Assembly (NCBI GenBank): GCA_002189035.1
Contig: NEEC01000010.1
Location: 434,001-498,000, forward strand
From: Utricularia gibba
Lineage: Eukaryota; Streptophyta; Magnoliopsida; Lamiales; Lentibulariaceae
Reading direction: 5' to 3'
Length of the DNA stretch: 64,000 bases
In this document: positions 10,735-63,169 of the stretch, in pieces
How positions within the stretch are numbered: position 1 is the first letter of the stretch
Layout of the letters: each line of letters starts with the position of its first letter
The notes under the pieces: generated by a model
The model's database searches: none
Seen by the model: only the letters and a program-made list of their open reading frames with translations
Told to the model about the DNA's origin: nothing
Made by a program: the position numbers and the translations under genes

Positions 10735-11290
10735 CTTGCAAATATCCTCCCGAGGCACCCACATGAGGGAAGAGGGTGTCTAGAAAACTGTATCAAATAC
10801 TCCTTCCCAGGCACCCATATAAGCGAAGTGGGTGCCTGGAAATCACTCTTCCTAGACACTCACATGATGCATTATTTTGTAGTTGCCATCCAACTCTCTT
10901 TCCTGGACACCCTCATGAGGCACCCACATGAGGGAAGAGGGTGTTTGGAAAACTATCTCAAATACTTCTTCCCAAGCACCCATATAACAAAAGTGAGTGC
11001 CTGGAAATCACTCTTCCCGAACACCCACACAATGCATTCTTTTGTAGGTGCCGTTCAACTCTCTTTCTTGGACACCCTCCCGAGGCACCCACATGAGGGA
11101 AGAGGGTGTGTGAAAAACTGTCTCAAATACTCCTTTCCAGGCACCCATATAACATAAGTGGGTGCCTAGAAATGACCTTACCCACTCTTTCCAGACACCT
11201 AAACAAGGCATTATGGGTTCCTAGAAAAGGCTATCTGACTCTATTTCCAGACACCCACACGAGGCAATGTGGGTGTCTGGAAAATGGTCT
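10735..11290. repeat. tandem array of 165-bp units made of hairpins
   Basis: The motif GAGGCACCCACATGAGGGAA starts at 10752, 10917 and 11082, an exact 165-bp spacing. Each unit holds several snap-back pairs of the form GGCACCC...GGGTGCC, with TTCCAG/CTGGAA flanks. A diverged partial unit runs to about 11285 and ends in a clean pair (CCAGACACCCACA / TGTGGGTGTCTGG at 11252-11281). The array starts about 80 bp after the hAT transposase. Single hairpin copies also lie next to the hAT-B right end and the hAT-A right end (17876-17925), so the unit is probably part of the hAT 3' region. Confidence 0.85.
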
Positions 11291-16113: not shown

Positions 16114-17490
16114 TGATAAACGGGAATTTCCTAATATCGTTGCAAATAAAAATAAAAAATCCGTATCAAATAAATTTATAATCCCTAATCTACACAAAAT
16201 AAAAATTTGGAAAACTTGTACAGTGGATATCGGGGTCGATCACGAAGACCTTGTGCTTGCTAAGTGTTTTAATACATGCATAATTTCGGATAACAATAGG
16301 TCTTAGTCTAAGCTCGGACTAACAGTGGTAAACAAGTTCAGTAAACAAGGTAGGTAAGCAATATCAGGTTTCTACGCTAGGGTAATAGGTACTGGTTTTG
16401 ACTCAGACTAATATGAGGATGCCTTAAGGGTCTGTGGGTTGTGTTATGCTAAGATTCCTAACTCAATTTATTATCTTCCTACACTCACAACTTCAAATAA
16501 CCTAAGTCTACCCAGGTCATTCATCATATTTTTGGCTTAAACTAGTCCCCAATATCATAACCAATTTTGCAATTGGGTCTACCCGCATGCAAGGTATATA
16601 GAACTAAATCTACCCGGTTCTACTGGTTCTACCCTGGACTAACACCGACTGCTCCCGTCTTGGTTTGTTGGTCTACCTCTAAACGAAGCATCTAAGTTGT
16701 GAAACTACTTGTTTCCCTCCTTTGGTCTACCCATGGTTTGTTAAAAACAAGAGTTAAGGAATACACATAAATTTCATTATCAAACCTAAGCACACACCAC
16801 ACCCCTTCACCTTAAGGCATCCCTAAGACTCTAGCCACTCATGCTTTGGAAATAAAACACGATTTCATTCATATAAGCTGGCCAAAATGGCAGAAACATT
16901 GTAACAAGTCAAATGCAGAAACTTGAAATGTTCAGAAAAACGGAAAGCAAATAGATATTGTTTTTCCGCCCGCTATCTACTGTTCACAGCTCTGAATAGT
17001 AGTGCTGGACTGGGCTCCGGTTGTGTTCATGATGATGAAGGCCTCTCTTCCCCCCTCTGGTTGGTGTTTCTCCCGTTGGGGAAGAAGACCCCCTTGCGTC
17101 CCCCTCGCTATGTGTTCTCCTTTTCCCGCTCTCTCCTTTTCGAAAATAATATCTTCCCTCATTTACTCCCACGCACAGTTTCTGACACCATCACTGTTCT
17201 CGCCCTGAACTTTTAGACTGTAGGTGGCGGAACAGTGCTCTTTATCTCTTGCAGCTTGGTGACTTTCACGAAATTCAGATCTCTTCCTTGATTCTTGGGT
17301 TGCTGCTAGACTCCAAAATCGGGTTAGATATGGGGTGGGCTAAATCAAAGAATTTAGCCCACTAATCACACCAAAAATTACATTTTCCTAAATTTCATAA
17401 AAACACTTAAAATTATAAAATAAACACATAAACAAGATTAAAAATTCATGATTTTTCATATCCTAAAACCTGAAAATTTGTGTGCTATCA
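16114..17490 (-). mobile_element. solo LTR-3 with perfect 5-bp duplication AATAT
   Basis: The segment begins TGATAAAC at 16114 and ends GTGTGCTATCA at 17490. AATAT stands on both sides (16109-16113, 17491-17495). It carries the family landmarks GGGGTCGATCACGAAGA and CTTGTGCTTGCTAAG near its left end, the GTCTACCC repeats in the middle and a GC-richer block at 16950-17210. No internal retrotransposon region is attached, so it is a solo LTR. It interrupts the PF04195-like frame. Confidence 0.85.
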
Positions 17491-22701: not shown

Positions 22702-23755
22702 TTATACACGGAAATTTCTTAATATCGTTACAATAAAAATAGAAATCCCTATCAAATAAATTTATAAGCTCTAATCCTCACAAAATATAAATTAAACACA
22801 AAGTGTACAGTAGAATTTAGGGTCGATCACAAGGAGCTTGTGCTTGCAATGTGTTTTTTGTGATGCAAAATGCGGTGCAACAGTGGTTCTTAGTCTAATC
22901 TTAAACTAACAGTAGTGAACAAGTTCAGTAAACAAGATTGGGTCTCAATGCTAAAAGTAAAAAGTGCTAGTTCTAACTCAGAGTAATACTAAGATGCCTT
23001 AAGGATTTGCAGGTGATGTGGTGCTAAGGTGTCTAATTTAATTTATCATGCTCCTACACACACAACTCTAAATAACCTAAGTCTACCCAAATCATTCATC
23101 ATATTTTCGACTAAGCTAGTTCTCAATATCATCACCAACATTGTAATTAGATCTACCGGTATGCAAAGCACATAGAACTAGGTCTACCCGGTTCTACGGG
23201 TTCCACCCCAGACTAACACCTACTACTCCCGTCTTGATTTGTTGGTCTACCTTTAAATCAAGTGTCTAAGATGCGAAGCTGTTCATTTCCCTCCTTAGGT
23301 CTACCCATGGAATATTAGAAACAAAAGCTAAGAAGCAATGATGAATTTTGTTATGAACCTTAGCTCCCACATAACCATTTTACTCTCTAAGGCATCCCCT
23401 AAGGCTTAACTACTCATACTTTGATGGTAAAACATAATAATATTAACATCAAGCAACGAAAATACCAAAAACATCGTGAAAGAGTTGGTTGCAGAAACTA
23501 AAAATGTCAAAAAATGAAAGTAAAATAGAGATAGTTCTGGTTTCTGTCGGCTACTGTTCATAGGCCGGAACAGTAGCGCTGGACTAGGTCTTGATCTTCG
23601 CTCTTCACGCTGGAGGTTCTTCTCTAGAAAAATCGCCTTCCTTTTTCTTTTTGGTTCCTGTTTGTCGTGTTGGAGTTGGGGGAGAAACCCCCTCGTATGT
23701 GTTCTGTTCGAATTGGTCACCCTCTTTGCGATTCTCTCTCCTCCGAGAGAGGCTT
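22702..23755 (-). mobile_element. LTR-3 copy, truncated at its right side
   Basis: ACGGAAATTTCTTAATATCG, AGGGTCGATCACAAGGAGCT and the GTCTACCC repeats identify LTR-3, starting about 22702. The GC-richer block at 23540-23750 is the counterpart of 16960-17210. The sequence then passes directly into the copia gag relic, so the far end is lost. Confidence 0.75.
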
Positions 23756-28709: not shown

Positions 28710-31292
28710 TGATAATCATGGTTTTTAGTAATTTTAAATTAGAAAAATGACTGTTATTATTGTGCATAATTAAGATTTTGTTAAGTGTTTGATGTTTTTG
28801 TGATTAGCAAAGCTATTTATATATTTTATTCCAGATTGGGTCTAAATCCTTGATTTAGTTGAAAAACCTTGATTTAATTATTTTCCTTAGAGCAATGCAC
28901 CACAATCCCAATAATCCAAATCATGAAGAACTGAAAATGTGATAAACGGAAATTTCCTAATATCGTTGTAAATAAAAATAGAAAATCCGTATGAAATAAA
29001 TTTATAGTCCCTAATCTACACAAAATACAAATTTGGAAAACTTGTGTAATGGATATCGGGGTCGATCAAGAAGAGCTTGTGCTTGCTAAGTATTTTAGTA
29101 GATGCAAGATTTCGGATAACAGTAGGTCTTAGTCTAAGCTCAAACTAACAGTGGTAAACAAGTTCAGTAAACAAAGTAGGTAAGCAATATTAGGTTTCTA
29201 CACTAGGGTAATAGGTACTGGTTTTAACTCAGACTAATATGAGAATGCTTTAAGGGTCTGCAGGTGGTGTTATGTTAAGCTTCCTAATTCAATTTATTAT
29301 CTTACTACACTCACAACTTCAAATAACCTAAGTCTACCCAGGTCATTCATTATATTTTTGGCTTAAGCTAGTTCTCAATGTCATAACCCACATTGCAATT
29401 GGGTCTACATGCATGCAAGGTATATAGAACTAAGTCTACCCGGTTCTACTGGTTCTATCCTGGACTAATACCGACTGCTCCTGTCTTGGTTTGTTGGTCT
29501 ACCTCTAAACCAAGCATCTAAGTTGTGAAACTACTTGTTTCCCTCCTTAGGTCTACCCATGGTTTGTTAGAAACAAGAGTTAAGGAATACACATAAATTT
29601 CATCATCAAACCTAAGCACACACCACACCACTTCACCTTAAGACATCCCTAAGACTCTAGCCACTCATGCTTGGGAAATAAAATACGATTTCATTCATGT
29701 AAGTTGGCCAAAATGGCAGAAACATTGTAAATAAGTAAAACGCAGAAACTTGAAATGTTCAGAAAACAGAAAGTAAATAGGATTGTTCTCCCGCCCGATA
29801 GCTACTGTTCACAGCCCGGAACAGTAGCACTGGACTGGGCTCCGGTGCTGTTCTTGATGATGGAGGCCTCCCTTCCCCCTTCTGGTTGGTGTTTTTCCCG
29901 TTGGGGAAGAAGACTCCCTTGCGTCCCCCTGCTGTCCGCTTCACTTCGTGCTCCCCTTCTTTTTTCGAATTAATTTCCTTTTCTTTTGCTTCACTCCATT
30001 GCACTGTTTCTGACTGCCAGTACTGTTCCTGACCGCGAGTACTGCTCCTGGCCTGAACTTGCAGACTGCGGTGGCAGCAGAACAATGCTCTTTGTCCTTC
30101 TCCGGATTTTGCGCCCTTTTTTGCTTGTTTTACACGCTTGCAAGTCTGATTTTCGGCTCATCTCCCTGCTGAACTTACTGAGACATTAGTAACAAGAGTT
30201 GTGGACTAAATCAAAGGATTTAGTCCACTTTTCAACATAATCACATAGGATTAACATAAACACCACTAAATCATGAAAAATCACATTTATCTAAACTAAA
30301 CCATAATAAAATATAACCATTTTGTATTTTGAAATTTAGGAAAAATGTGTGTCATCAAAATGCATACTGGATGTGGCAGTAAAATGGGACAAAAAGAAGG
30401 AAAGAGAAACACCAAATTTCAAAGAGACAAGAAAGTAAACTTTTGAACAAGATAGGATAGATCAACTTCAAAAATATGAAAGGAGTCTTGAAAGGGGATC
30501 TGGAGAAAAATCATAGAAGAATGATGAAGGAAGATGGAAGAAACCAAGAACCAAACTCGTCTTTGAAGATTTTCTTTATTTATCAAAAATATTACTCTTA
30601 GTTAGAAATAAATCACAACGATTTAACATTCTTCATTTAACTATTTATATTTCATTCCTTTTTATTTTCTTGGTATCAAGGTGTGATATGAACATATTGT
30701 GGATGATGTTTTATGTGCTAGTTTTCTTCTACATGAGTAACTAGTATCAAATGGTGCCTTAGAACCAAAGAGGACAAAAATGTTCATTGTTCATTAAATC
30801 ATATTAACCATATAATTGTGCTAGTTGCTTAACAAACTACAGGAAGGGAAAATAATGGTATGTTCATCATAAGCAAACCTTAATTAGAGTTAGATCAAAG
30901 ATTAAGGGAAAACAAGGGTTTGGAAAGACTTGAACTTTTATTGATTAGATGAATGATTTTTTGTTTGGATGAGATAAAGATAGTGATGAACATGTTCTTT
31001 GAAGTCTTAAGGCATTGCATTGATTTCCTTTAGATAGAACTTTGATTCACTCATTTATTTTTTTTATTATATTGTATTAGAATTTTGCATTCAACCTAAC
31101 TTAGACTTAATCTTTCATCATGAAAGAATAGAATACATTATCTTTTATATGATAAGCACAAAACTCTTCGTGTTCGATATTAATCTACTATGCTTGTACT
31201 TGTCTTATGATTAAGTGTGAATTATATTTATAAATTTATTTGGTAGTAAATTTTGCATTTTATTCAATGATCTACGAATTTTTCGTTTATCG
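28710..31292 (+). mobile_element. LTR-3 copy, split by another LTR-3
   Basis: Starts TGATAATCATGG at 28710, is interrupted at 28939 by the copy 28940-30357 and resumes at 30363. It passes AAGCACAAAACTCTTCGTG at about 31155 and ends ...TTTTTCGTTTATCG at 31292. Outside 5-mers are GTAGG and GTGTG, three of five matching, as expected for an old copy. Confidence 0.65.
28940..30357 (-). mobile_element. solo LTR-3 with perfect duplication AAATG
   Basis: Begins TGATAAACGG at 28940 and ends GTGTGTCATCA at 30357, with AAATG on both sides (28935-28939, 30358-30362). It is the closest relative of the 16114-17490 copy, including the GC-richer block 29790-30090. It is inserted head-on into an older LTR-3. 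Confidence 0.88.
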
Positions 31293-32305: not shown

Positions 32306-33317
32306 TGATAAATGAAAAATTTGCAACGTCGTTAAATTGCAATTTTCCCCTATCAAATAAATTTATAACCTAACACACATTTAAGCATAATACAATTATG
32401 AACATAGTGATTAGGATCGAACACGAAGAGCAGGTGCTTATCAATGCATGCAATCAGTGCCACGTCGATAGATTTGGTCTTAGCTAAGACAAAGACGGAG
32501 TTGTGATAAAATACAGTAAAGAAAAGTAACAAACTTATGAACTCGGATGTTTCTTGAATGAAATGGGTGATGCCTTGGGACTCCTAAGGGATGTGTGGTC
32601 ATCACTAAAAATGCTCACACAAACCATAACTCAAACAACTAACATACTAAAATCTAGGTCTACCCGGATTCTTGTTTTCCCTCTAATCTTTGGTCAACCT
32701 CTAATTAGGGTTGTTAAGCTGGGTTTCACTACTTCCCTCTTTTGCATCTATCCTGGTTTGTTAAGAAAGTAGCATGACTTATGGTTGATTAGGTTTAAAA
32801 ATTGATTAGTATGTTTCTCCTCTTTTCATTCCAAGGCACCCCTTAAACGCTTAGCCACTCATACTTAAGGTAAATGAAAATAGAAAAGAAAATTTCATCC
32901 ACATTGTACTCATCTCACGGTCGAATACTAGAAAGGAAACAAGCAATGAATTTAAAATGTCAACAGAAAACTAGAAATGTCGCTAGCTACTCTTAGCTAA
33001 GAATAATAATTTTTGGAAACAGAAAATAGTCTTCAAGCATAAGATTCATTCCTAGTTCATCTTCCTCCTTCTCCCCCTAGAAATCTTCTCCAGAAAGTTG
33101 TGTCATGTGTCTCCAATGAGGTAGATATTTTTCTCTATCCATCTTGTCCTCTTTTTTGTCAAAAATCCTACTTTTTTCCTTCCTTGGATTTTGTGTGTAT
33201 TCCTTTTTAGACTTCTGCCTCATCCTCTATTACTACATTGTTCATATCCGGCTTCTTGGAATTTGTGTTGCGACCTGTGCTGCATTGCTCACAGAAAACT
33301 ATGAGATGGTTGGCCTT
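32306..33317 (-). mobile_element. LTR-3 copy inside hAT-C, truncated
   Basis: Begins TGATAAATGAAAAATTTGC at 32306 and shows AGGATCGAACACGAAGAGCA at about 32411. The part at 33140-33317 matches 62872-63040 closely. The match stops at about 33317 where hAT coding sequence begins, so the last 130 bp or so are missing. Confidence 0.7.
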
Positions 33318-35213
33318 GATTGTTTCTAACATCTTCATTCAATTTTTCATCCAATTTCGATCTATTAACTTTAACTCTCATACATTTGTTGTTCGTCCAT
33401 CGATCCATACTTTTTTGTCCCCACCATCACTATCACTTACATTATTGCTCATCACATCATCTATATTTTCCATCATCGATTTCTTTTTATACTCTTCAAA
33501 TAAAGCTAGAGAATTTTTCTTATCTCAAAAATCATATCAACTGATTTTTTTATCACAAATATCATTTAAGCAATCGTAATACTCAAATTTTTTACGAGGA
33601 TAAAAAATAACAACAATGAATAGTAACTTATTCATCTTTTATGCATCACCTCAATACTTCAAATACTTTTCTCTTATTTTTATTGCTATTTCAATCAAAT
33701 TCACATTACTCGAGTTTTGCTATTCACATAAAGCTTTATCAATGTTAAGTGTCATTTTTTAGTTATCATTATGTATTATTATGTGTTAATTTAGTATCAA
33801 GTCGTCTAAATTAGGAGTCATATTGATAAGTATTTGATTTTATTAACAAAATCCTATTTTTGTATTTTGTACATATTTTGTTTTTTTTTTCGTGCACTTT
33901 CACCTAAAATGTCAGGAGGCAAGCTTGAAGTGTTGCAAGAGATTTTCAGGAGACCAGACACTGACGTTTCATACCTTTCACACACTTTGGTCAATTTTGG
34001 ATGAAAGACTCACACTAGTCAGTACCTTTAACTTACAGCATTTCAGAGTCTGCAACAATGATTGGGCATTTATTTGCATGCATGGGAAAACTAGTGGCGC
34101 ATGCAAGACAAAAAGAATGATGGGAAGGGTAGCATAATGAGTTAATGCATGTGAGGAGTGAGATAAAATCAACTTGGAACACTTGTTTTGGGATTTTTGA
34201 CACTTACTTTTCGCACTTAAAACTTTTGGTTCTTCCTCTTCTCCAAGTGAGGAAGAACACTTTAGCTTTTGAATTTCATTTTTTGTTTTCATGGCCATTC
34301 GTGGCTAAATCTTTTTAGTTTTTGGGAGTAGATGAAGTTTCCTTCCAAGTCTTGCGCATTAATCTCGGTTCTTTGCTGAATTCATTTCGGATTTTACATA
34401 CTTCCATGCATCTTGTTGTAGTCTTTCTGTAACATCTTCTGTTGGGTTTCTTGTAGACATCGTATGTCTCAAAAGCAGCGGAATTTTAAAAATTTTCAGA
34501 AACCCCCAACGCAGATTTTGGAATACGGTATAAATCAGACTAAGGGATGCTAAAATACCTTTCAGATTACTCCGTTGTTCACCAACCGCCAATAGGAGAC
34601 GGCCTCTATGGTATCCACACGTGGAGCACTCCGTCGATAACCTTCTCAAGGCTCTTGAATGCTGGTCGAATTCCTCAGGTGCTAGTAGAGAAAAACGCTT
34701 CCTTGTGGATTAGTCTCAGAGAGCACGAAGACCTTCAGAACAGATCTCAAGATCTAAATCTTTTTGATAGATATATGGTAACATATCAAATCATATCTCC
34801 GTAAAGATCTTATCTTGTGGAGATATGTATATGTTCCAAATCTTATCTATATATGATCTTTTATTTTGAGTTTAATCAATATTAATCTCAAAATAACTCT
34901 CAATTTAATTTATCCACTTTACCAATTACATCTCATGTAATTGTGTCATTCTATTTTATATCGTTGAGTGACTCCACTATTGTGTGTGACTCTATAGGCT
35001 TCTTCAATCAAGGCCGTAATAATGGATTTATTAATTAACTCTTAATTAATCAAATCCATCATTATCGATCATGATTGATGTCTAGCAACATATCATGATC
35101 CCCAAGATGTAAGAATAATCAGGTGAACTGATTGAGTCTTTCCATGACCAGCCACCATGCAATGAACAGCTTTCATCATACTTATATCTCATTCGATACT
35201 AGAACATGGGTGT

Positions 35214-36521
35214 TGTTAAGTGTCATTTTCTAGTTATTATTTAGGTATTATTATGTATTAATTAAGTGCTAAGTCATCCAATTAGGAGTCTTATTATTAA
35301 GTATTTGATTTTTACTAGAAAATTCCTATTTTCCCATTTTCTGTATATTTTATGCATTTTTTCTCACACTTTGACCGAGGCATGTCAGGAGACTGTCAGG
35401 AGTGTTGCAGGAGGATTGCAGGTGGTCAGACTCTGAGTTTTCGTACCTTGTACGCGAGTTGGAATGATTGTGGGCAGAAGACTGACACTGGTCAAGGCCC
35501 ATGACTTACGGCATGTCAGAGTCTGCAGCAATTATTGGGCGCAAACTTGCACGCAAAGAAAGTCTGTTGGCGCACGCAAGACAGAATGAATGATGGGAAG
35601 GGGACCCAAATGAGTTAATACACGTGGGAAGTCATATAAAAACCACTTGGAGCACTTAGTTTAGAACTTTTGAACATTTTCCCTTGTACTTAGAACTTTT
35701 GAGTTCTTCCTCCCCTCAAGGAGGAAGAACACTTAGTTTGCTTTTCGTTTCTGTTTCTATGGCCCTTTTGGGCTAAAAACCTTTAGTTTCTGGAAAGTAG
35801 ATGAAGTTTCCTTCCAAGTCCTGAGCAATACACTCGGTTCTTCACTGAATTCCATTCGGATTCCGCATACTTCCACACGTCTTGCTACAGTCTTTCTATA
35901 ACGACTCTTAGTCAAGGTCCATGAGTAGCAAGCCACTTCTCGCGGATTTTGGTGAAGATCAAGGTGAAGAGCACCAACTCCAACCCTGCTGGTTCGAGGG
36001 AAGTAGCAGATTGTTTGTGGCCTAGGTACCGCGACAGTGGACAGGTTGTGACCTCGGACCTGCCACTGGCCATTGGCAACAGCTGGGCACACGCGCACAA
36101 TTCGGTTTTGAAGGCAATCGAAGGCAATCCTCTTGTCTTCCTAATCGTCCAAGGGGGAATCACATGAGGCTATTCCCGTGCCTCCTTGTCAATCAGAGTG
36201 TAAGGGAGAGTAGGCTATTCCTTGCTCCTATAACCAGCTTTTCGGAAGAAATCAGTGAAAACCGAGGCAAGGACGGACAAAGGAAGGAGATGGAGTCTTA
36301 TTCCCAAGAATTGCGTCCCGTAGTCAAGGCCCATTACTTAGGTTGTATCTTTCATTTCTACATCTTAAAAACTCCCTTTTACAAAACCGTGACATTTTGT
36401 AGAAGTTGCTTGCAAACACTTTTCACGAAAAACAACTCCCTGAGATCGATACTCGTACTATGCTTTCTAGTGTTTTACGTTTTAAAATATTTAAAATTTG
36501 TTGAGGAAACGACACACAACA
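35214..36521 (+). mobile_element. LTR-1b: innermost LTR of the nest (TSD GGTGT)
   Basis: 1308 bp from TGTTAAGTGTCATTTTC to GACACACAACA, flanked exactly by GGTGT (35209-35213, 36522-36526). Visible landmarks are a TATA-like CATATAAAAACC (about 35633), a perfect 11-bp-stem hairpin (35703-35730), ATCACATGAGGCTATTCCC (about 36160) and CTGAGATCGATACTCG near the 3' end. It is the youngest-looking LTR-1 copy, being inside LTR-2, which is itself inside an older LTR-1. Confidence 0.92.
35703..35730 (+). promoter_or_regulatory. conserved hairpin in the LTR-1 leader
   Basis: GTTCTTCCTCC (35703-35713) pairs perfectly with GGAGGAAGAAC (35720-35730) around a 6-nt loop, about 65 bp downstream of the TATA-like CATATAAAAACC. 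The stem is kept in the other copies (34229-34258, 51001-51029, and imperfectly at 59284-59314) although the loops differ. It would lie near the 5' end of the transcript and again near the 3' end in a full element. Its function is unknown. Confidence 0.6.
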
Positions 36522-38419
36522 GGTGTGTGTCTTTCTGATGTATCGAATTTATAATTGCATTCAAGCACTAACACTCAATGACCTACTCAAACAATTCGAG
36601 TGTCATTACCCTGGGCCCAGGACTTACTGTTAGGCTTTGATGCAATTACTTGAGATATGATCTCATCGCTAACATGAGTGATGAATCCTTTATTGATCAA
36701 TCAACTATCTCCAACCTTAAGGAGTTACATCCCTACTCATCCATACTAGGTAAGCCATGGTTAGACTCCCATTAGTGATGAGCGAAAATGTTAGCTAATC
36801 AAGATAACTTTGTTGACCTCAAGTCTAAGCTTACTTGCACGACTGTCATATTCGAGATCTTGCTACTGACACTTGGTTAGCTTCCCATAGTAGCATCTCG
36901 AAGATGAGTCATCCAGTGAATCGATTCTCTAATCGACACCCACACATAGGTTCTAGTAATCTCATTACGTCAATTGTGAGAACCATTGCCTAAATAGTTT
37001 AGGGAACTCAATGTGTGCCAGCTTATCCGTATTTGTGATATCCTCATTTCACAAACACTCTAGCTAGGGAGTTTTTAACTTGATCATGAGTGCTTGAAGA
37101 ATCTCACATTATGATCTCATCATAATTTCTATAGCACATAGATCAAGTAGAGGATTTTATCAATGATATAAATTTGATCACAATTCAAAGTAAATATCAT
37201 AAGATAAGATTTTCCAATGAGTTGATTGTCTCTAGAACACATACACCAACATCTTCTACTCACGGTCCATGAATAGTAGGCTACTCCTAATGGATTTTGA
37301 TGAAGAGCAAGGTGAAGAGCACCATCTCCAACCCTACTGGTTTAAGAGAAGTAGCAAATTGTTTGTGACTGAGGTATCATAAAAATGGATAGGTGGTGGC
37401 CTCATACCTGTCATTGGTCATTGGTAACAATTGGGCACATGCACAAAATTCGGTTTTGAAAACAATCGATGACAATCCTCTTGTCTTCTCAATCGTCCAA
37501 GGGGGAATCACATGATGCTATTCCCATGCCCCCTTGTCAATCAGAGTGTAAGGAAGAATAGACTATTCTTTGTTCCTATAACTAGTTATTCGGAAGGAAC
37601 CAGTGAAAACCGAGGCGAGGATAGACAAAAGAACGAAACGGAGTTCCTTTCCCACGAACTGCATCTCGTAGTCAAAGTCCATTACTTATGTCATGTCTTT
37701 TATTTCTACACTTCAAAAACCCCTTTTACAAATGCATGATAATTTCTAAAAGTTTTCTACAAAACACTTTTCTCAAAACTCAATCTGTGAGATCGACACT
37801 TGTACTCCTTTGTGTTTTACGTTTTTCTAAATTAAAATTTATTTAGAAAACGACATGCAACAATCAAGAATTCTTATCTCAGGTAAAAAAACAACTAGCA
37901 GTCTTCAACATTTTTAGAGTAAGTTGATAAAGGTGTTCAAGATATTTGACTAGTCTTCTAACATCTTCCCAATCACTTGTACTTGGTATGATATATATTC
38001 CTACATTATTTTCAAGATCTTTTCTAAATATGATATTATATATAAGTGTGGCTTCCAGCATTAGATAAGTAGCATTCTACCTAGTTGACACATTTAATAT
38101 CAAAGAATATTTACAATGAATATTTTCAACAACTACACATTCTTTAAAATTGTACAACCTTTGAGAAGATTCTCTAATATATAGTTTATCTTCTCTAACT
38201 TTTTTTACAGCATATGTTGCCAATTTTATACCATTTCACACAATTAATTTAATTATGTAAGCAGCACACTACATATGAAGCATTTTATATTTCATCACAC
38301 TTTCTTTCTGTTACAATACTTCCCTTAAAAACCGAATAACAACATCATTTGAAATAGTATTATCAATTGTAATTGTAAAAATTTTATCCAATCCCCAATC
38401 ATGTAAGCATCTATCAATA

Positions 38420-39607
38420 TGATAACACCGTTTTTATTATATTTTTATATATATATTTTAAGTGTATTTTGTAAGGTTAAATGTCGCTAAGTGTGCTAAA
38501 ATGTCTTCTTTTGTGTATTTAATCTTTTAGAATGTGTTTTTTTGTGAAAATAGTATATATTTCGTCTAGTCTGTGTTTTAAGTCTTACCAGGGTGAGAGC
38601 TAGTACTATAGCAGCGCACTTTCTGCGTTGACAAGTCAAAAGGGACAGAAAAGCTGTAAAAAAGCCACTTTCCACCGAAAGTAGCCGCCCTTCTGAAGAG
38701 ATAAGATATGGAGCAAAGATCTCCATTCTAGAAGCCAGAGGAAAAAGACCAAGCTGCCCTTACTTTTGAGTAGCAAAAGGGAAAAGGAAGGGAGAGAAGA
38801 AAGAGAGTAAAATGTGCACGCAGAGTGCATAGACAGCGACCAGGAGCAAGCGGGAACGAGAACGTCGTTTCTCCGGTGAAAGTCTCCGGCGACCTCCAGA
38901 TCTGCGTGTCTACACCACTGCTCCGGCCAGAATTTCGATTTCCAGCAGATCTCTAGCCCACAGAAGCATCCTACAACTTTTATTTATAGATTTCTGCACT
39001 CCCTTTTCTGCATGAACTTGCTACTGTTATTGTCGTCGTTTTTATGCTCTCTGTTGTGTTTCGGTACCCTGTTGTGAACGAGAAACTAGTTGTAGACATT
39101 GTTTTAGCTTATGAACATGCTGTTGTTTACCCTTTTCGTGCTTTGCCTTACGTTTAACACAATTTACTGTTCTTGCAAACCATGCTCTGTTTCTGCAAAC
39201 CATTACTCTGTTTTTAAGCATTCCAAAGCTAGGTTTAAGTCTATGGGCCCCCTTGAGTGACACAAGATAGACCATGATGTAAAACCCAATCAAATTACTT
39301 TTATTTTATGTTTTCTGCACCTTCACGTCAATTTCAATCCCTTTTCACCCCTGCAACTCGCTTATTCCAGTTACTGTTATTTTAGATCTTACCCGCGTTA
39401 GAACTAAACTTCAGAAACCCCCCTTGTTTCCAGTAAATGTGTTAAACTTCAGGAAATTACAACCATTCCCTATGGATTCGACCCTTGCTTGCCACACTAC
39501 ATTAATTCTTGTGATTTGTGTAGTAGATTAGCTTGGTTTATAAATTTCTTTTGATGTGTTGAATGTGCTAAACCGCGACATTTAGCAACCCATTCCAACG
39601 TCCATCA
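38420..39607 (+). mobile_element. LTR-4: solo LTR in the hAT-C transposase (TSD CAATA)
   Basis: 1188 bp from TGATAACACCG at 38420 to GTCCATCA at 39607, with CAATA on both sides (38415-38419, 39608-39612). It has a GC-richer block with CTCCGG and CCGGCGACC at 38850-38940, and TATGGATTCGACCCTTGCTT near the right end, which sets the orientation. It separates two collinear hAT coding pieces. Confidence 0.85.
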
Positions 39608-44282: not shown

Positions 44283-44729
44283 TCAAATCTTGTGCAACTT
44301 GACGCCCTTGACTACGGGGTTGGCCCTGGCGATTTCCTCCCTCCCCATCGCCTTGAAATCAAACGTACAGCCGTGTTTCTCCGGATACCGATGGACCCCA
44401 CAAAAAGAAGCTTCGCATCGGCACCGGAAACCCATCAGACCCACCTTCTTCCGGCAGGCGGAGCACCTGTTACTGCCCTCTGGTCCCCTTTGCGGCGGCG
44501 CGTGGGTCGCCGTCGAGGCGGAACGCTGAATTTTCTCCAGCAACGAAACCGGCTCCACAGAGGAAGTCGACGCCAAGCCGAAGGCCGTGGTTTCTGCTGG
44601 TTTCTCGATTTGGAGGTCCCTGTAGCATTTGGTGCAGAGGTTTTGCATCGCCGGGCTTCCGATGAAGCCACAGTTGTTGACGCACATGCGGTGGCCGTTG
44701 GTGGCTTGAAATCCTTGCTCTTCAGCCAT
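44283..44729 (-). CDS. A20/AN1 zinc-finger stress-associated protein (SAP)
   Basis: An intronless 148-residue protein. An A20 finger lies near the N-terminus (CVNNCGFIGSPAMQNLCTKC, C-X3-C-X11-C-X2-C) and a C-terminal AN1 finger at residues about 88-125 (CSACRKK...FRCRCEASFC, then VHRYPEKHGC; C-X2-C-X10-C-X-C-X4-C-X2-H-X5-H-X-C). All zinc ligands are present. The protein ends ARANPVVKGVKLHKI, a usual SAP tail. Plant SAPs are stress-induced proteins linked to ubiquitin binding and E3 activity through A20 and AN1. A TATA box (TATATAAA, minus strand, 44799-44792) stands 65 bp upstream of the ATG. It is divergent from TAF12. Confidence 0.95.
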   Translation of the reverse strand: MAEEQGFQATNGHRMCVNNCGFIGSPAMQNLCTKCYRDLQIEKPAETTAFGLASTSSVEPVSLLEKIQRSASTATHAPPQRGPEGSNRCSACRKKVGLMGFRCRCEASFCGVHRYPEKHGCTFDFKAMGREEIARANPVVKGVKLHKI

Positions 44730-49280: not shown

Positions 49281-51663
49281 TGTTATATCATAATATAATA
49301 ATACATAAAATTGAAAATTAGGATTTAGAATTAATTAAACCATTTTTAAAATATTATCTTTTTTTATCTTTTGTTTAAATTGAGAGCTAAATCAATAATT
49401 TAGTCCCGACCTGCAATTAATCATGTTGTTGAGTACAACAACATTATTTTAAGTCACATCCCGAAAGTTCATTTCTATCATATTCTATTCTGACATGAGA
49501 ACGGTAAACCAAAAGTTTAAAGAGATAAAACTAAAAAGAGGAGTAATTAGGTACAATCACATTCTAAAGTGATGAAGAAAGAGATAGAAAAGAAAAAAAG
49601 GATTTTGCAAGAAAAAAAGAATGCAGGAGAGAGAGTACAGAACTCAAAAAAACCTCAAAGAATAATTGAAGAATACATTGAAGAGTAAGGAGTTCTCTCA
49701 TTGGCTTGATCAAGAAATAATAGGAGAAATATGACTCCTAGCATGGAGCATATTAAACATTTTATTTTCTCTTTTATTGAAAACTTACTTTATTTAGCAT
49801 CTGCTTGTCTTTTTTGCTTGACAATTAATACTATGAAAGTGTTTGCTATGTTTTAGTTTTATGTTTTTACCTTGTTCTTACCTTATATGAGTAGTTAAAA
49901 TGAATAAGTGATGTCTTAGGGAAGAATGGAATGAGTATTTTTTTACCTCTTAGTTTATAATTGAAATCCTCTATTATTTTTCTATTAAACCATTATAGTT
50001 ATAGGAGGGAGGGAGGGTAATATATTTATCCCCAAAATCTAACTAGAGGTATACCAAGGTTAGGTAAGAAGAGAAATTTAGGTAAACTTAAATCTCTTGT
50101 GGGAAAAAAGAAATTCATGTTCGAGAAGTGATACATCTCTAAAACCTGAATGTGTCACCTTATCTTTATTGTAATTTAAATTTGATCTATTTCACCACAT
50201 ATTTATGCTTTACTAAGCCTAACTTAGACTTAGTACCCAAGTGTAACAAATAGAATGCATTGATCTTCATATAATGTTGCGTGTCGTTTCCTTAACAAAT
50301 TTTACAAAATTTTCCTTAGTACAAGTATCGATCTCAGGAAGTTGTTTTTTTATGAAAAGTGTTTTGTAAGAAACTTCTACAAAATGTCACGGTTTTGTAA
50401 AAGGGGTTTTTGAAATACAAAAATAAAAGTTACAACCTAAGTGATGGACCTTGACTATGAGACGCAGTTCCTGGGAATGAGATTTTATCCCCTTCCTTTG
50501 TCCATCCTTGCCTCGGTTTTCACTGATTTCTTTCGAATAGCTGGTTATAGGAGCAAGGAATAGTCTACTCTCCCTTACACTCTGATTGACAAGGAGGCAC
50601 GGGAATAACCTCATGTGATTCCCCCTTGGACGATTAAGAAGACAAGAGGATTGCTTTCGATTACCTTCAAAACCGAATTGTGTGCGTGTACCCAGTTGTT
50701 GCCAATGGCCAGTGGCAGGTCCGAGGTCACAACCTATCCACTGTCGTGGTACCTAGGCCACAAACAATCCACTACTTCCCTCGAACCGGTAGGGTTGGAG
50801 TTGATGCTCTTCACCTTGATCTTCACCAAAATCCGTGAGGAGTGGCCTGCTACTCATGGAAGTATGCGAAATCCAAACTGAATTCAGCGAAGAACCGAGT
50901 GTATTGCTCAGGACTTGGAAGGAAATTTCATCTTCTCCCAGAAATTAAAGAGTTTTAGCTACAAAGGGCCATGAAAATAGAACAAAATTGGAAGCTAAGT
51001 GTTCTTCCTCATTAGAGGGGAGGAAGAACTCAAAAGTTTTATGTCTAGAAAGAAAATGGTAAAAGTTCGAAATTAAGTGTTTCAAGTTGCTTTTATATCA
51101 CTCTCCATGTGCATTAACTCCTTCTGGTCCACTTCCCATCATTCCTTCTGTCTTGCATGTGCCACCAGCTTTCCTTTGCGTGCAAGTTCGCACTCAATCA
51201 TTTTTGCAGACTCTGACATGCCGTAAGTTAGGGGCCTTGACTAGTGTCAGTCTTCTGCCTAAAATTGTTCCAAGTCACGTAGAAGGCACAACAAGTCAGA
51301 GTCTGACCTCTTGCAATACTTCTGCAACACTCCACGACAATCTCTTGACATGTCTCGATCAAAGTGCACGAAAAAAGATAGAAAATATATACAAAATAGG
51401 AAAATAAGATTTTTCTAAGGAAATACAATATTTATCAATATAAATCCTAAATTGACAACTTGACACCAGATTAATACATAATAATACCTAATAATAAACT
51501 AGAAAATGACACTTAACATACAACAAACACTTTGCTCTTTGTGATTGATTATAATTCCATTACATGCTTACATTTTCTTGCTATTTCATGGCAAATTAGG
51601 TTTATAAATTAATTTGGTATAAAAATTAACACTTTGAATGATGATGTGAAATTTTTCGTTTAT
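49281..51663 (+). mobile_element. LTR-3 copy, split by LTR-1c
   Basis: Begins about TGTTATATCATAAT at 49281. The sequence CCTAACTTAGACTTAGTACC (about 50217) is interrupted at 50275 and resumes at 51524 with ACACTTTGCTCTTTGTG. It ends near TTTTTCGTTTATA (51663), collinear with 30700-31292. Outer duplications were not resolved. Confidence 0.6.
50275..51518 (-). mobile_element. LTR-1c: solo LTR inside LTR-3 (TSD TATAA/TACAA)
   Basis: 1244 bp from TGTTGCGTGTCGTTTCC to GACACTTAACA, the reverse complement of the LTR-1 ends. The flanking 5-mers are TATAA (50270-50274) and TACAA (51519-51523), four of five matching. It is very similar to LTR-1b over its length, including the leader hairpin at 51001-51029. 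Confidence 0.88.
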
Positions 51664-61270: not shown

Positions 61271-62871
61271 TTCTTCTTATTTATCATAACCCATGCCTAG
61301 GCCTATATGTCATGTGTCATGACTAACAAGAATAGCAACATTAGGACTTAAGTCAACTTAACTCTTACATAACCTAAGTTTACACATACATTGTAACATA
61401 ACTATCCTAACATGCCTGGATACTACAACCAGCCTACATATGACACATCTCATAACATAGCTAAAGATCTTAGAGCCAATAAAATGCCTCTCACACCTTG
61501 AATAACCATACTCCTACTTTGGTTGATCAACTGACCATTAGCTATTCCCTTCCACATCTACAACAACTTTAAAACATGAAGTAGTCATGCTACTATAATT
61601 TGGTAAACAATACACATGTATAAAGAAAATAAAGAGTGTTTGAGAATTGAATCTCAAAATCTATTTTTGATCAAATCCCTTGACCCTTTGGCTTAGGCAT
61701 CACCTATAGGTGTTAGAAAGTGAGTAATGTGTTGTCTAAATTGATAAGTAGTCATTAGAAGAGCCACCACCTCTAAACTCACACTATATCATGCATACAA
61801 CATGCTTTGATGTCTTTCTTGTTTGGCTTACCCCAAAAGGATGCCTCACACATGTCTAACAAAGTTAGCCTTGGATCCCATAGTTAAAACCATGTTCCTA
61901 GGAGTATGGGTTCACACTTATTTTCTAAGGTATAATCATACAGCACATAACATAAAAAACTTTGAATAGTTCTTAGGCTTCTTCTATCAAAACCCATGAT
62001 TACTATGTATATCAAATTAGCCAAAGCTCTTTTATACAAACAACCAATAGGGGGCACTTCATCTTTACATAAATTGATAAGCCTAATTCAAAAGGATATT
62101 AAAGACTCCAAACTCATTTGAAAACACATAACAACAAAATAAATATTATTTTAAGAATCCTGCATTCTACCCTATTGGCTTTTCAGAAACAATGAAAGTC
62201 AAAGAAGAAAACTACATTTTGCAAAACAGGGAACAATCCCTTCCAAAATAAAAAGGAATCACATGAGCAAGTAGATATACTTGTTCCAAAAAAAAATATA
62301 AGAAACATGTTCATTATAGCAACAATAGCATTCATTCCACTTACCGTATTCCTTTATTGTACAATACCCCTTTCTTACAGCTAGAATCAAGCACTTCCCT
62401 TACTCTCTTGTTATATCCTCTACTTCCCTTTCTCAACAACTCTACACCTTAAGGTTTCCCAAAGTACTCTCATCACCATCATTTACAAAACTACATGTGT
62501 TAGCATCCCCCCTATCCTAAAGTTACCATGTGGGTTTTCCTTTAGATAGCACTTGCAACACTACTATTGGTTGCTTTTGATACTATACATAAATTATGAC
62601 CATTTAGAGAAATAATTTGCTTAATTGTAGATGGCATATTCCTAACCTCTTAGATGATCAAATGGATTCAGAGATTGCAAACCATTACATTGTTTTGTGA
62701 GTGTGACATCATTTCTATATATTGAGTTGCAAGGATATTGATTTCTTTAGGCCAACTTTGTTTCCTTGAAGGATTACTTTATTGGAAAATCAAGATCTAA
62801 TTTGTCAAACACTTCTTGTTTGGAGGATCACATCATTATTGTTGATTTGAATAATCAAGATTCATCTTGTC
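61271..62871. other. AT-rich repeat DNA, no gene seen
   Basis: Possibly the diverged body of an LTR-3-like copy ending at 63169, but the match could not be followed left of 62872. Confidence 0.4.
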
Positions 62872-63169
62872 CCCCTTTTTGTCCAAAATCTCCCTTTTTC
62901 TCTTTCTTGGATTTTGTGTGTACTCATTTTCAGACTTCTATCTAATCCTCTGCCACTTCATTGTTCATATTCGGCTCTTTGGGATTTGTGTTGCAACTTG
63001 TACTGCATTGCTCAAAGAAAACTATTAGAAGGTTGGGACTAAATAAGACTAAAATAATACAGCTACAGTACTTTTCGCAAAAATATAAAATTAGACAGTA
63101 AAACTTGATTTTTGTAGCACAATATGAGTAATTTCCATGTACTCCATTACTCAAAAATATGTGTTATCA
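62872..63169 (-). mobile_element. LTR-3 terminal fragment
   Basis: 62872-63040 matches 33140-33317 (TTGGATTTTGTGTGTA, CATTGTTCATAT, GCATTGCTCA.AGAAAACTAT). 63025-63169 matches 3610-3755 and ends TATGTGTTATCA. It shows that both blocks belong to LTR-3. Confidence 0.7.

Follow-up and report, generated by a model that had tools for sequence, protein, structure and literature searches.

Three solo long terminal repeats (LTRs) are nested inside one another in the 64,000-nucleotide stretch of Utricularia gibba DNA analysed here (the window; G000:C304:434001-498000, from an assembly totalling 100.1 Mb over 516 contigs). LTR-1b (35214-36521) lies within LTR-2 (34440-37251), which in turn lies within LTR-1a (33743-37862), with every end placed to the base. 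This arrangement almost certainly records three successive retrotransposon insertions, each of which was later cut down to a solo LTR. Judged from paralogs of its flanks, the nest itself sits in a fourth, outermost layer, a decayed hAT transposase gene. The full stack, from the outside inwards, is therefore read as hAT relic, Athila-like solo LTR, copia solo LTR and Athila-like solo LTR. A first-pass annotation of this DNA had described the three nested LTRs, and its six boundaries, TG..CA ends and three exact 5-bp duplications all proved correct; it had missed the hAT layer, and its account of LTR-2 has to be amended, since this LTR is of Ty1/copia type and runs opposite to the other two.

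All three LTRs carry TGTT...AACA termini, and each is one complete LTR with no interior, full-length in comparison with the other copies of its family. They are flanked by exact 5-bp target site duplications (TSDs): ATCAA for LTR-1a, TCTTC for LTR-2 and GGTGT for LTR-1b. In the local base composition a 5-mer would match by chance with a probability of ~0.0015 per junction, or ~3e-9 for the three junctions. The annotation had also raised the possibility that the flanking 5-mers belong to longer unrelated repeats; the 5-mers of the nest do not belong to any such repeats.

Each outer layer becomes continuous once the inner one is taken out. LTR-1a without LTR-2 and one copy of TCTTC measures 1303 bp and aligns over its whole length with LTR-1b (1308 bp) at 77.2% identity (Kimura two-parameter distance, K2P, 0.279). 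It is likewise collinear with LTR-1c, a family member outside the nest (50275-51518, minus strand), at 78.3% identity (K2P 0.264), in agreement with the collinearity across LTR-2 that the annotation had assumed; LTR-1b and LTR-1c are 85.5% identical. LTR-2 without LTR-1b measures 1499 bp, and its halves are gaplessly adjacent in many other copies, which are 94-97% identical over the full length. The GGTGT site is uninterrupted in 29/29 sampled LTR-2 copies, nearly all of which read ATGGGTGT^GTGTC, and the TCTTC site is uninterrupted in all of the more than 40 LTR-1 copies sampled outside the nest, LTR-1c having a deletion there. At the outermost level, paralogs of the nest flanks at C414:205394-206475 and C3:4083515-4084591 are collinear over the insertion point and read AAAGCTTCATCAACATTTGTAATC, with a single ATCAA where the window has ATCAA-[nest]-ATCAA; a paralog at C402:2263381, which matches the left flank only, likewise reads AAAGCTTCATCAACC. 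Paralogous empty sites are thus present at all three levels, and each insertion is therefore backed by its unoccupied form.

At the target of LTR-2 the LTR-1 family reads GACTCC or GACTCT and LTR-1a reads ATCTTC; TCTTC as the ancestral family sequence is ruled out by the ACTCC/ACTCT found there in the family. Because the derived letters are present in both TCTTC copies flanking LTR-2, LTR-1a had probably already mutated at this target when LTR-2 arrived.

The assignment of the host layer comes from its C414 paralog, which encodes on the minus strand a hAT transposase (PF14372, Pfam hAT-like_RNase-H, E = 7e-21). The C-terminal hAT dimerisation region gives a weak match (0.003), below its cut-off. 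At the start of the left host part, beside the nest, a stretch of ~170 bp (33143-33313) matches a repeat with hundreds of occurrences in the genome; it recurs in the window at 62860-63036 and is present at most of the 40 places scored among 326 candidates, and it is perhaps a miniature inverted-repeat transposable element (MITE) or a transposon end.

LTR-1, which lies in plus orientation in the nest, is the terminal repeat of a Ty3/gypsy element of Athila-like type, ~11 kb in length. Longer elements that combine the LTRs of the nest with an interior occur in the same genome: for LTR-1 at C413:3636346-3647301 (~11 kb, its two LTRs differing by K2P 0.0038) and C414:451133-462245, and for LTR-2 at C451:3809010-3814568, together with copies flanked by a primer-binding site (PBS) or polypurine tract (PPT). 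The interior of the C413 element carries RVT_1, RNase H and integrase in gypsy order; consecutive frames in L108 match RVT_1 (3.5e-11), RT_RNaseH (4e-37) and rve (2.5e-15). The LTR-1 copies of full elements are followed by AATTTTTGGCGCCGTTGCCGGGGAGTTG or preceded by ...TTTAAGTGTGGGGGAATA; the PBS after LTR-1 elsewhere is AATTTTTGGCGCCGTTGCCGGGG, and the PPT side before it is TGTGGGGGAATA. Immediately 3' of LTR-1, TTTTTGGCGCCGTTGCCGGGG was taken as a tRNA-Asp-type PBS, and TGGCGCCGTTGCCGGGG, within the sequence after LTR-1, is presumably complementary to the 3' end of plant tRNA-Asp. This tRNA is listed among the primers of non-chromovirus gypsy elements (PMC6317226). With the Athila clade of non-chromovirus OTA Ty3/gypsy elements (Neumann et al. 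2019, PMC6317226), LTR-1 shares long LTRs (1.3 kb), a length of ~11 kb, a long region outside the polyprotein, the order reverse transcriptase (RT)-RNaseH-integrase (INT), a tRNA-Asp-type PBS and a 5-bp duplication; on these features it fits the Athila clade. Nesting within this family also occurs at C2:3472264-3474781 (L042), where a solo LTR-1 with a GATTT duplication lies inside an older LTR-1 copy (~69% identity).

LTR-2, in minus orientation in the nest, can be identified from the interiors of its relatives as the LTR of a Ty1/copia element. Copies elsewhere, read in their own orientation, have GTGGTATCGGAGC (an initiator-methionine tRNA, tRNA-iMet, type of PBS) after them or CAAGTGGGAGAT (the PPT side) before them, and in L111 the tRNA-iMet-type PBS next to the 5' LTR is AACAGTGGTATCGGAGC. 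LTR-2 interiors match the profiles Retrotran_gag_2 (1.7e-13), gag_pre-integrs (2.1e-13) and RVT_2 (1.6e-53), and in L110 the integrase frame stands ahead of the RT frame, which is the copia order. LTR-2 thereby shares with plant Ty1/copia elements primed by tRNA-iMet the copia gag (PF14223), gag_pre-integrs, RVT_2, the TGGTATCGGAGC PBS and the 5-bp duplication. An LTR of 1.5 kb, such as that of LTR-2, is long for many copia lineages. Two LTR-2 copies at C460:496850-498407 and 507357-508920 (L051, L052) stand in opposite orientations, have branches of zero length and each adjoin an interior on their outward side; they may represent an inverted duplication or an assembly effect.

Single LTRs are frequent in both families, and solo LTRs are standard in plants. 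Exact 5-bp duplications flank 23 of the 42 other complete LTR-1 copies as single LTRs (5 more have one mismatch) and 12 of 29 LTR-2 copies (1 more with one mismatch). The removal step itself can be seen in a pair of LTR-1 loci that share one insertion site and the TSD TAGTC: the full element at C414:451133-462245 (11,113 bp) and a solo LTR at C199:14067-15363 (1,297 bp), with flanks 99.8% (603 bp) and 99% (1037 bp) identical. As far as column 675, all 10 informative differences place the C199 LTR with the 5' LTR of the C414 element; from column 775 onwards, 10 sites side with the 3' LTR against 5 with the 5' LTR (Fisher p = 0.001), and these five are compatible with changes that the C414 3' LTR acquired later on its own. 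On this alignment the C199 copy is a 5'-LTR/3'-LTR mosaic, as a crossover between the LTRs of one element would produce, and the crossover can be placed within about 100 bp. From this pair we infer that the same LTR-LTR recombination produced the solo state of LTR-1a and LTR-1b; for LTR-2 it is suggested by the exact duplications and by the frequency of such solo LTRs. The LTRs of the nest share with solo LTRs derived from intra-element recombination the single full-length LTR between exact duplications, with no difference of substance.

Divergence agrees with the position of LTR-1a at the base of the retrotransposon layers. Trees built with FastTree from 45 LTR-1 and 30 LTR-2 sequences (40 bootstraps) give terminal branches of 0.123 for LTR-1a (bootstrap range 0.097-0.146), 0.020 for LTR-1b (0.013-0.029), 0.093 for LTR-1c (0.077-0.105) and 0.020 for LTR-2 (0.013-0.026); the lengths that accompany the bootstrap ranges are 0.120 for LTR-1a, 0.018 for LTR-2 and 0.020 for LTR-1b. 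Among the sampled copies none comes nearer to LTR-1a than K2P 0.20, whereas LTR-1b has several relatives at 0.036-0.044 and LTR-2 several at 0.034-0.036. LTR-1a also has fewer CHG sites than LTR-1b (18 vs 41) and fewer CpG sites (23 vs 39), which is consistent with the expectation for a long-methylated copy. LTR-1a is thus the most diverged of the three, as the annotation had expected, and the oldest; the order of LTR-2 and LTR-1b is given by the nesting alone, because their divergences are equal within error. At the rice substitution rate of 1.3e-8 per site and year, the branches would correspond roughly to ~9 million years for LTR-1a and ~1.5 million years for LTR-2 and LTR-1b. The innermost and outermost LTRs had been assigned to one family, and the LTR-1 assignment stands for both, although LTR-1a and LTR-1b fall in different parts of the tree and are 77% identical, under the usual 80% line. 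The "one family" spans two subfamilies, an old one with LTR-1a and a young one with LTR-1b.

By far the most probable history begins with the insertion of an old-subfamily Athila-like LTR-1 element into the hAT relic, in plus orientation and with duplication of ATCAA. Much later a Ty1/copia element entered one LTR of that copy in minus orientation, duplicating TCTTC, and a young-subfamily LTR-1 element then entered one LTR of the copia copy in plus orientation, duplicating GGTGT. In each element the two LTRs would have recombined, with loss of the interior and one LTR, so that one LTR remained with the duplications around it intact. Nesting leaves 1a, 2, 1b as the sole possible order of the insertions, and from it follows the activity of the LTR-1 family both before and after LTR-2, as had been claimed. 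The further claim that insertion and LTR-LTR recombination proceeded in order holds for the insertions but goes beyond the structure for the deletions. These may have occurred in any order as long as the inner layers survived, because an outer element can still recombine on one side of a younger insertion that sits in one of its LTRs, with the same product; strict alternation of insertion and deletion is only one of several histories. Within this scheme we lean slightly towards outer elements that were already solo LTRs, rather than still complete, when the next element landed: solo LTRs are common enough in both families to make a solo target plausible, and LTR-1a had probably mutated before the arrival of LTR-2, yet the sequence fits both versions equally, since the product is the same whichever side of the inner insertion the crossover falls on.

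Several points weigh against the proposed history. The nest is known from the assembled sequence alone. LTR-2 and LTR-1b are not separated by divergence, and terminal branch length varies with the relatives sampled. The C414/C199 pair illustrates the mechanism in the LTR-1 family at a locus other than the nest, and the two members may be alleles or may stem from a recent duplication.

Loss of the interiors by inter-element or ectopic recombination, or by illegitimate deletion, rather than by exchange between the LTRs of one element, is very improbable. Such events may occur in this genome, as the LTR-2 copy at C48:19667-21166 (L018) is a single LTR with the unequal flanking 5-mers GTCAA and GAAGG. 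Matching exact duplications at three levels are, however, the outcome of intra-element exchange, whereas inter-element recombination destroys them, and the units that remain in the nest are full-length LTRs with exact ends. The C48 copy has a counterpart in the 5.6-kb stretch at C451:3809010-3814568 (L010), which carries LTR-2 at both ends; the right flanks of the two loci are 99% identical and the left flanks 96% over 624 bp, with mismatched flanking 5-mers. This is a possible second before/after pair, in the LTR-2 family, in which inter-element recombination or deletion may have been involved.

There is next to no likelihood that one or more units never had an interior here and were short non-autonomous elements, similar to terminal-repeat retrotransposons in miniature (TRIMs), large retrotransposon derivatives (LARDs) or MITEs. 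No interior is left at the nest locus, as such elements would have it, but this genome also holds full elements that have LTR-1 or LTR-2 as their LTRs, with properly placed PBS and PPT and coding interiors, and no terminal direct repeat inside either unit appears in the repeat listing of the window; short elements are rejected for both families, whose units border coding interiors at other places. Misassembly is a known hazard of LTR repeats, but an artefactual join of three repeats is scarcely credible and is rejected on the target duplications and empty sites, since a false join would not yield three exact, well-placed duplications with agreeing empty sites.

Nests of LTR retrotransposons in which the oldest element forms the base are a standard feature of plant genomes (PMC2773423, PMC7251063, PMC2672092). 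The nest shares the younger-inside-older order with the stacks of maize and others (SanMiguel et al. 1996, as cited in PMC2773423) but differs from them in that each of its three retrotransposon layers is a solo LTR and in that the assembly is compact (~100 Mb). No literature count of triple solo-LTR nests turned up, although no search was aimed at such a count. The nest is an ordinary, well-preserved example of textbook nested insertion and LTR-LTR recombination, of low novelty. Its value is that it documents cleanly how elements were inserted and removed in a compact plant-like genome; the nesting gives clock-independent relative ages, while the LTR pairs on which dating normally relies have been lost. 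The C414/C199 pair is the more useful of the two, and neither changes what is known of retrotransposon turnover. A bolder view, that the LTR-1 and LTR-2 families prefer each other's LTRs or heterochromatin and that interiors are removed unusually fast, making multi-layer solo-LTR stacks far commoner than in other plants, is improbable.

Table 1. Components of the nest, its host and the related solo LTR in the window.
Feature	Position	Strand	Basis or remark
Host, left part: decayed hAT transposase gene (putative)	33143..33742	-	Paralogs C414, C3, C402; collinear across empty site
TSD ATCAA, left copy (LTR-1a)	33738..33742	.	Single ATCAA in paralogous empty sites
LTR-1a 5' part, 697 bp, one TCTTC at its end	33743..34439	+	Alignment to LTR-1 family
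TSD TCTTC, left copy (LTR-2)	34435..34439	.	
LTR-2 left part, 774 bp, Ty1/copia solo LTR	34440..35213	-	40 copies in the genome, 94-97% identical; PBS and PPT sides as in other copies
TSD GGTGT, left copy (LTR-1b)	35209..35213	.	
LTR-1b, complete solo LTR, 1308 bp, Athila-like Ty3/gypsy	35214..36521	+	Genome copies up to 96%; intact element pair L005/L006
TSD GGTGT, right copy (LTR-1b)	36522..36526	.	
LTR-2 right part, 725 bp	36527..37251	-	Abuts left part without gap elsewhere, e.g. C244:764120-765619
TSD TCTTC, right copy (LTR-2)	37252..37256	.	
LTR-1a 3' part, 606 bp	37257..37862	+	Alignment to LTR-1 family
TSD ATCAA, right copy (LTR-1a)	37863..37867	.	
Host, right part: decayed hAT transposase gene (putative)	37868..38420	-	Paralogs C414, C3
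LTR-1c, LTR-1-family solo LTR outside the nest, 1244 bp	50275..51518	-	One-mismatch duplication TTGTA/TTATA in LTR orientation

Elsewhere in the window, direct repeats at 16114-17105, 22804-23362 and 28940-29930 are spaced 6.3-6.6 kb apart, the first and third copies being ~90% alike and the second ~78%. At 10746-11240 a 165-bp unit is present in three tandem copies (100, 86, 65%). An open reading frame on the minus strand at 6154-6624 matches DDE_Tnp_4 / Plant_tran, a PIF/Harbinger-type transposase fragment. The minus-strand gene at 44283-44729, for an A20/AN1 zinc finger protein of the stress-associated protein type, is among the few likely host genes in the window.

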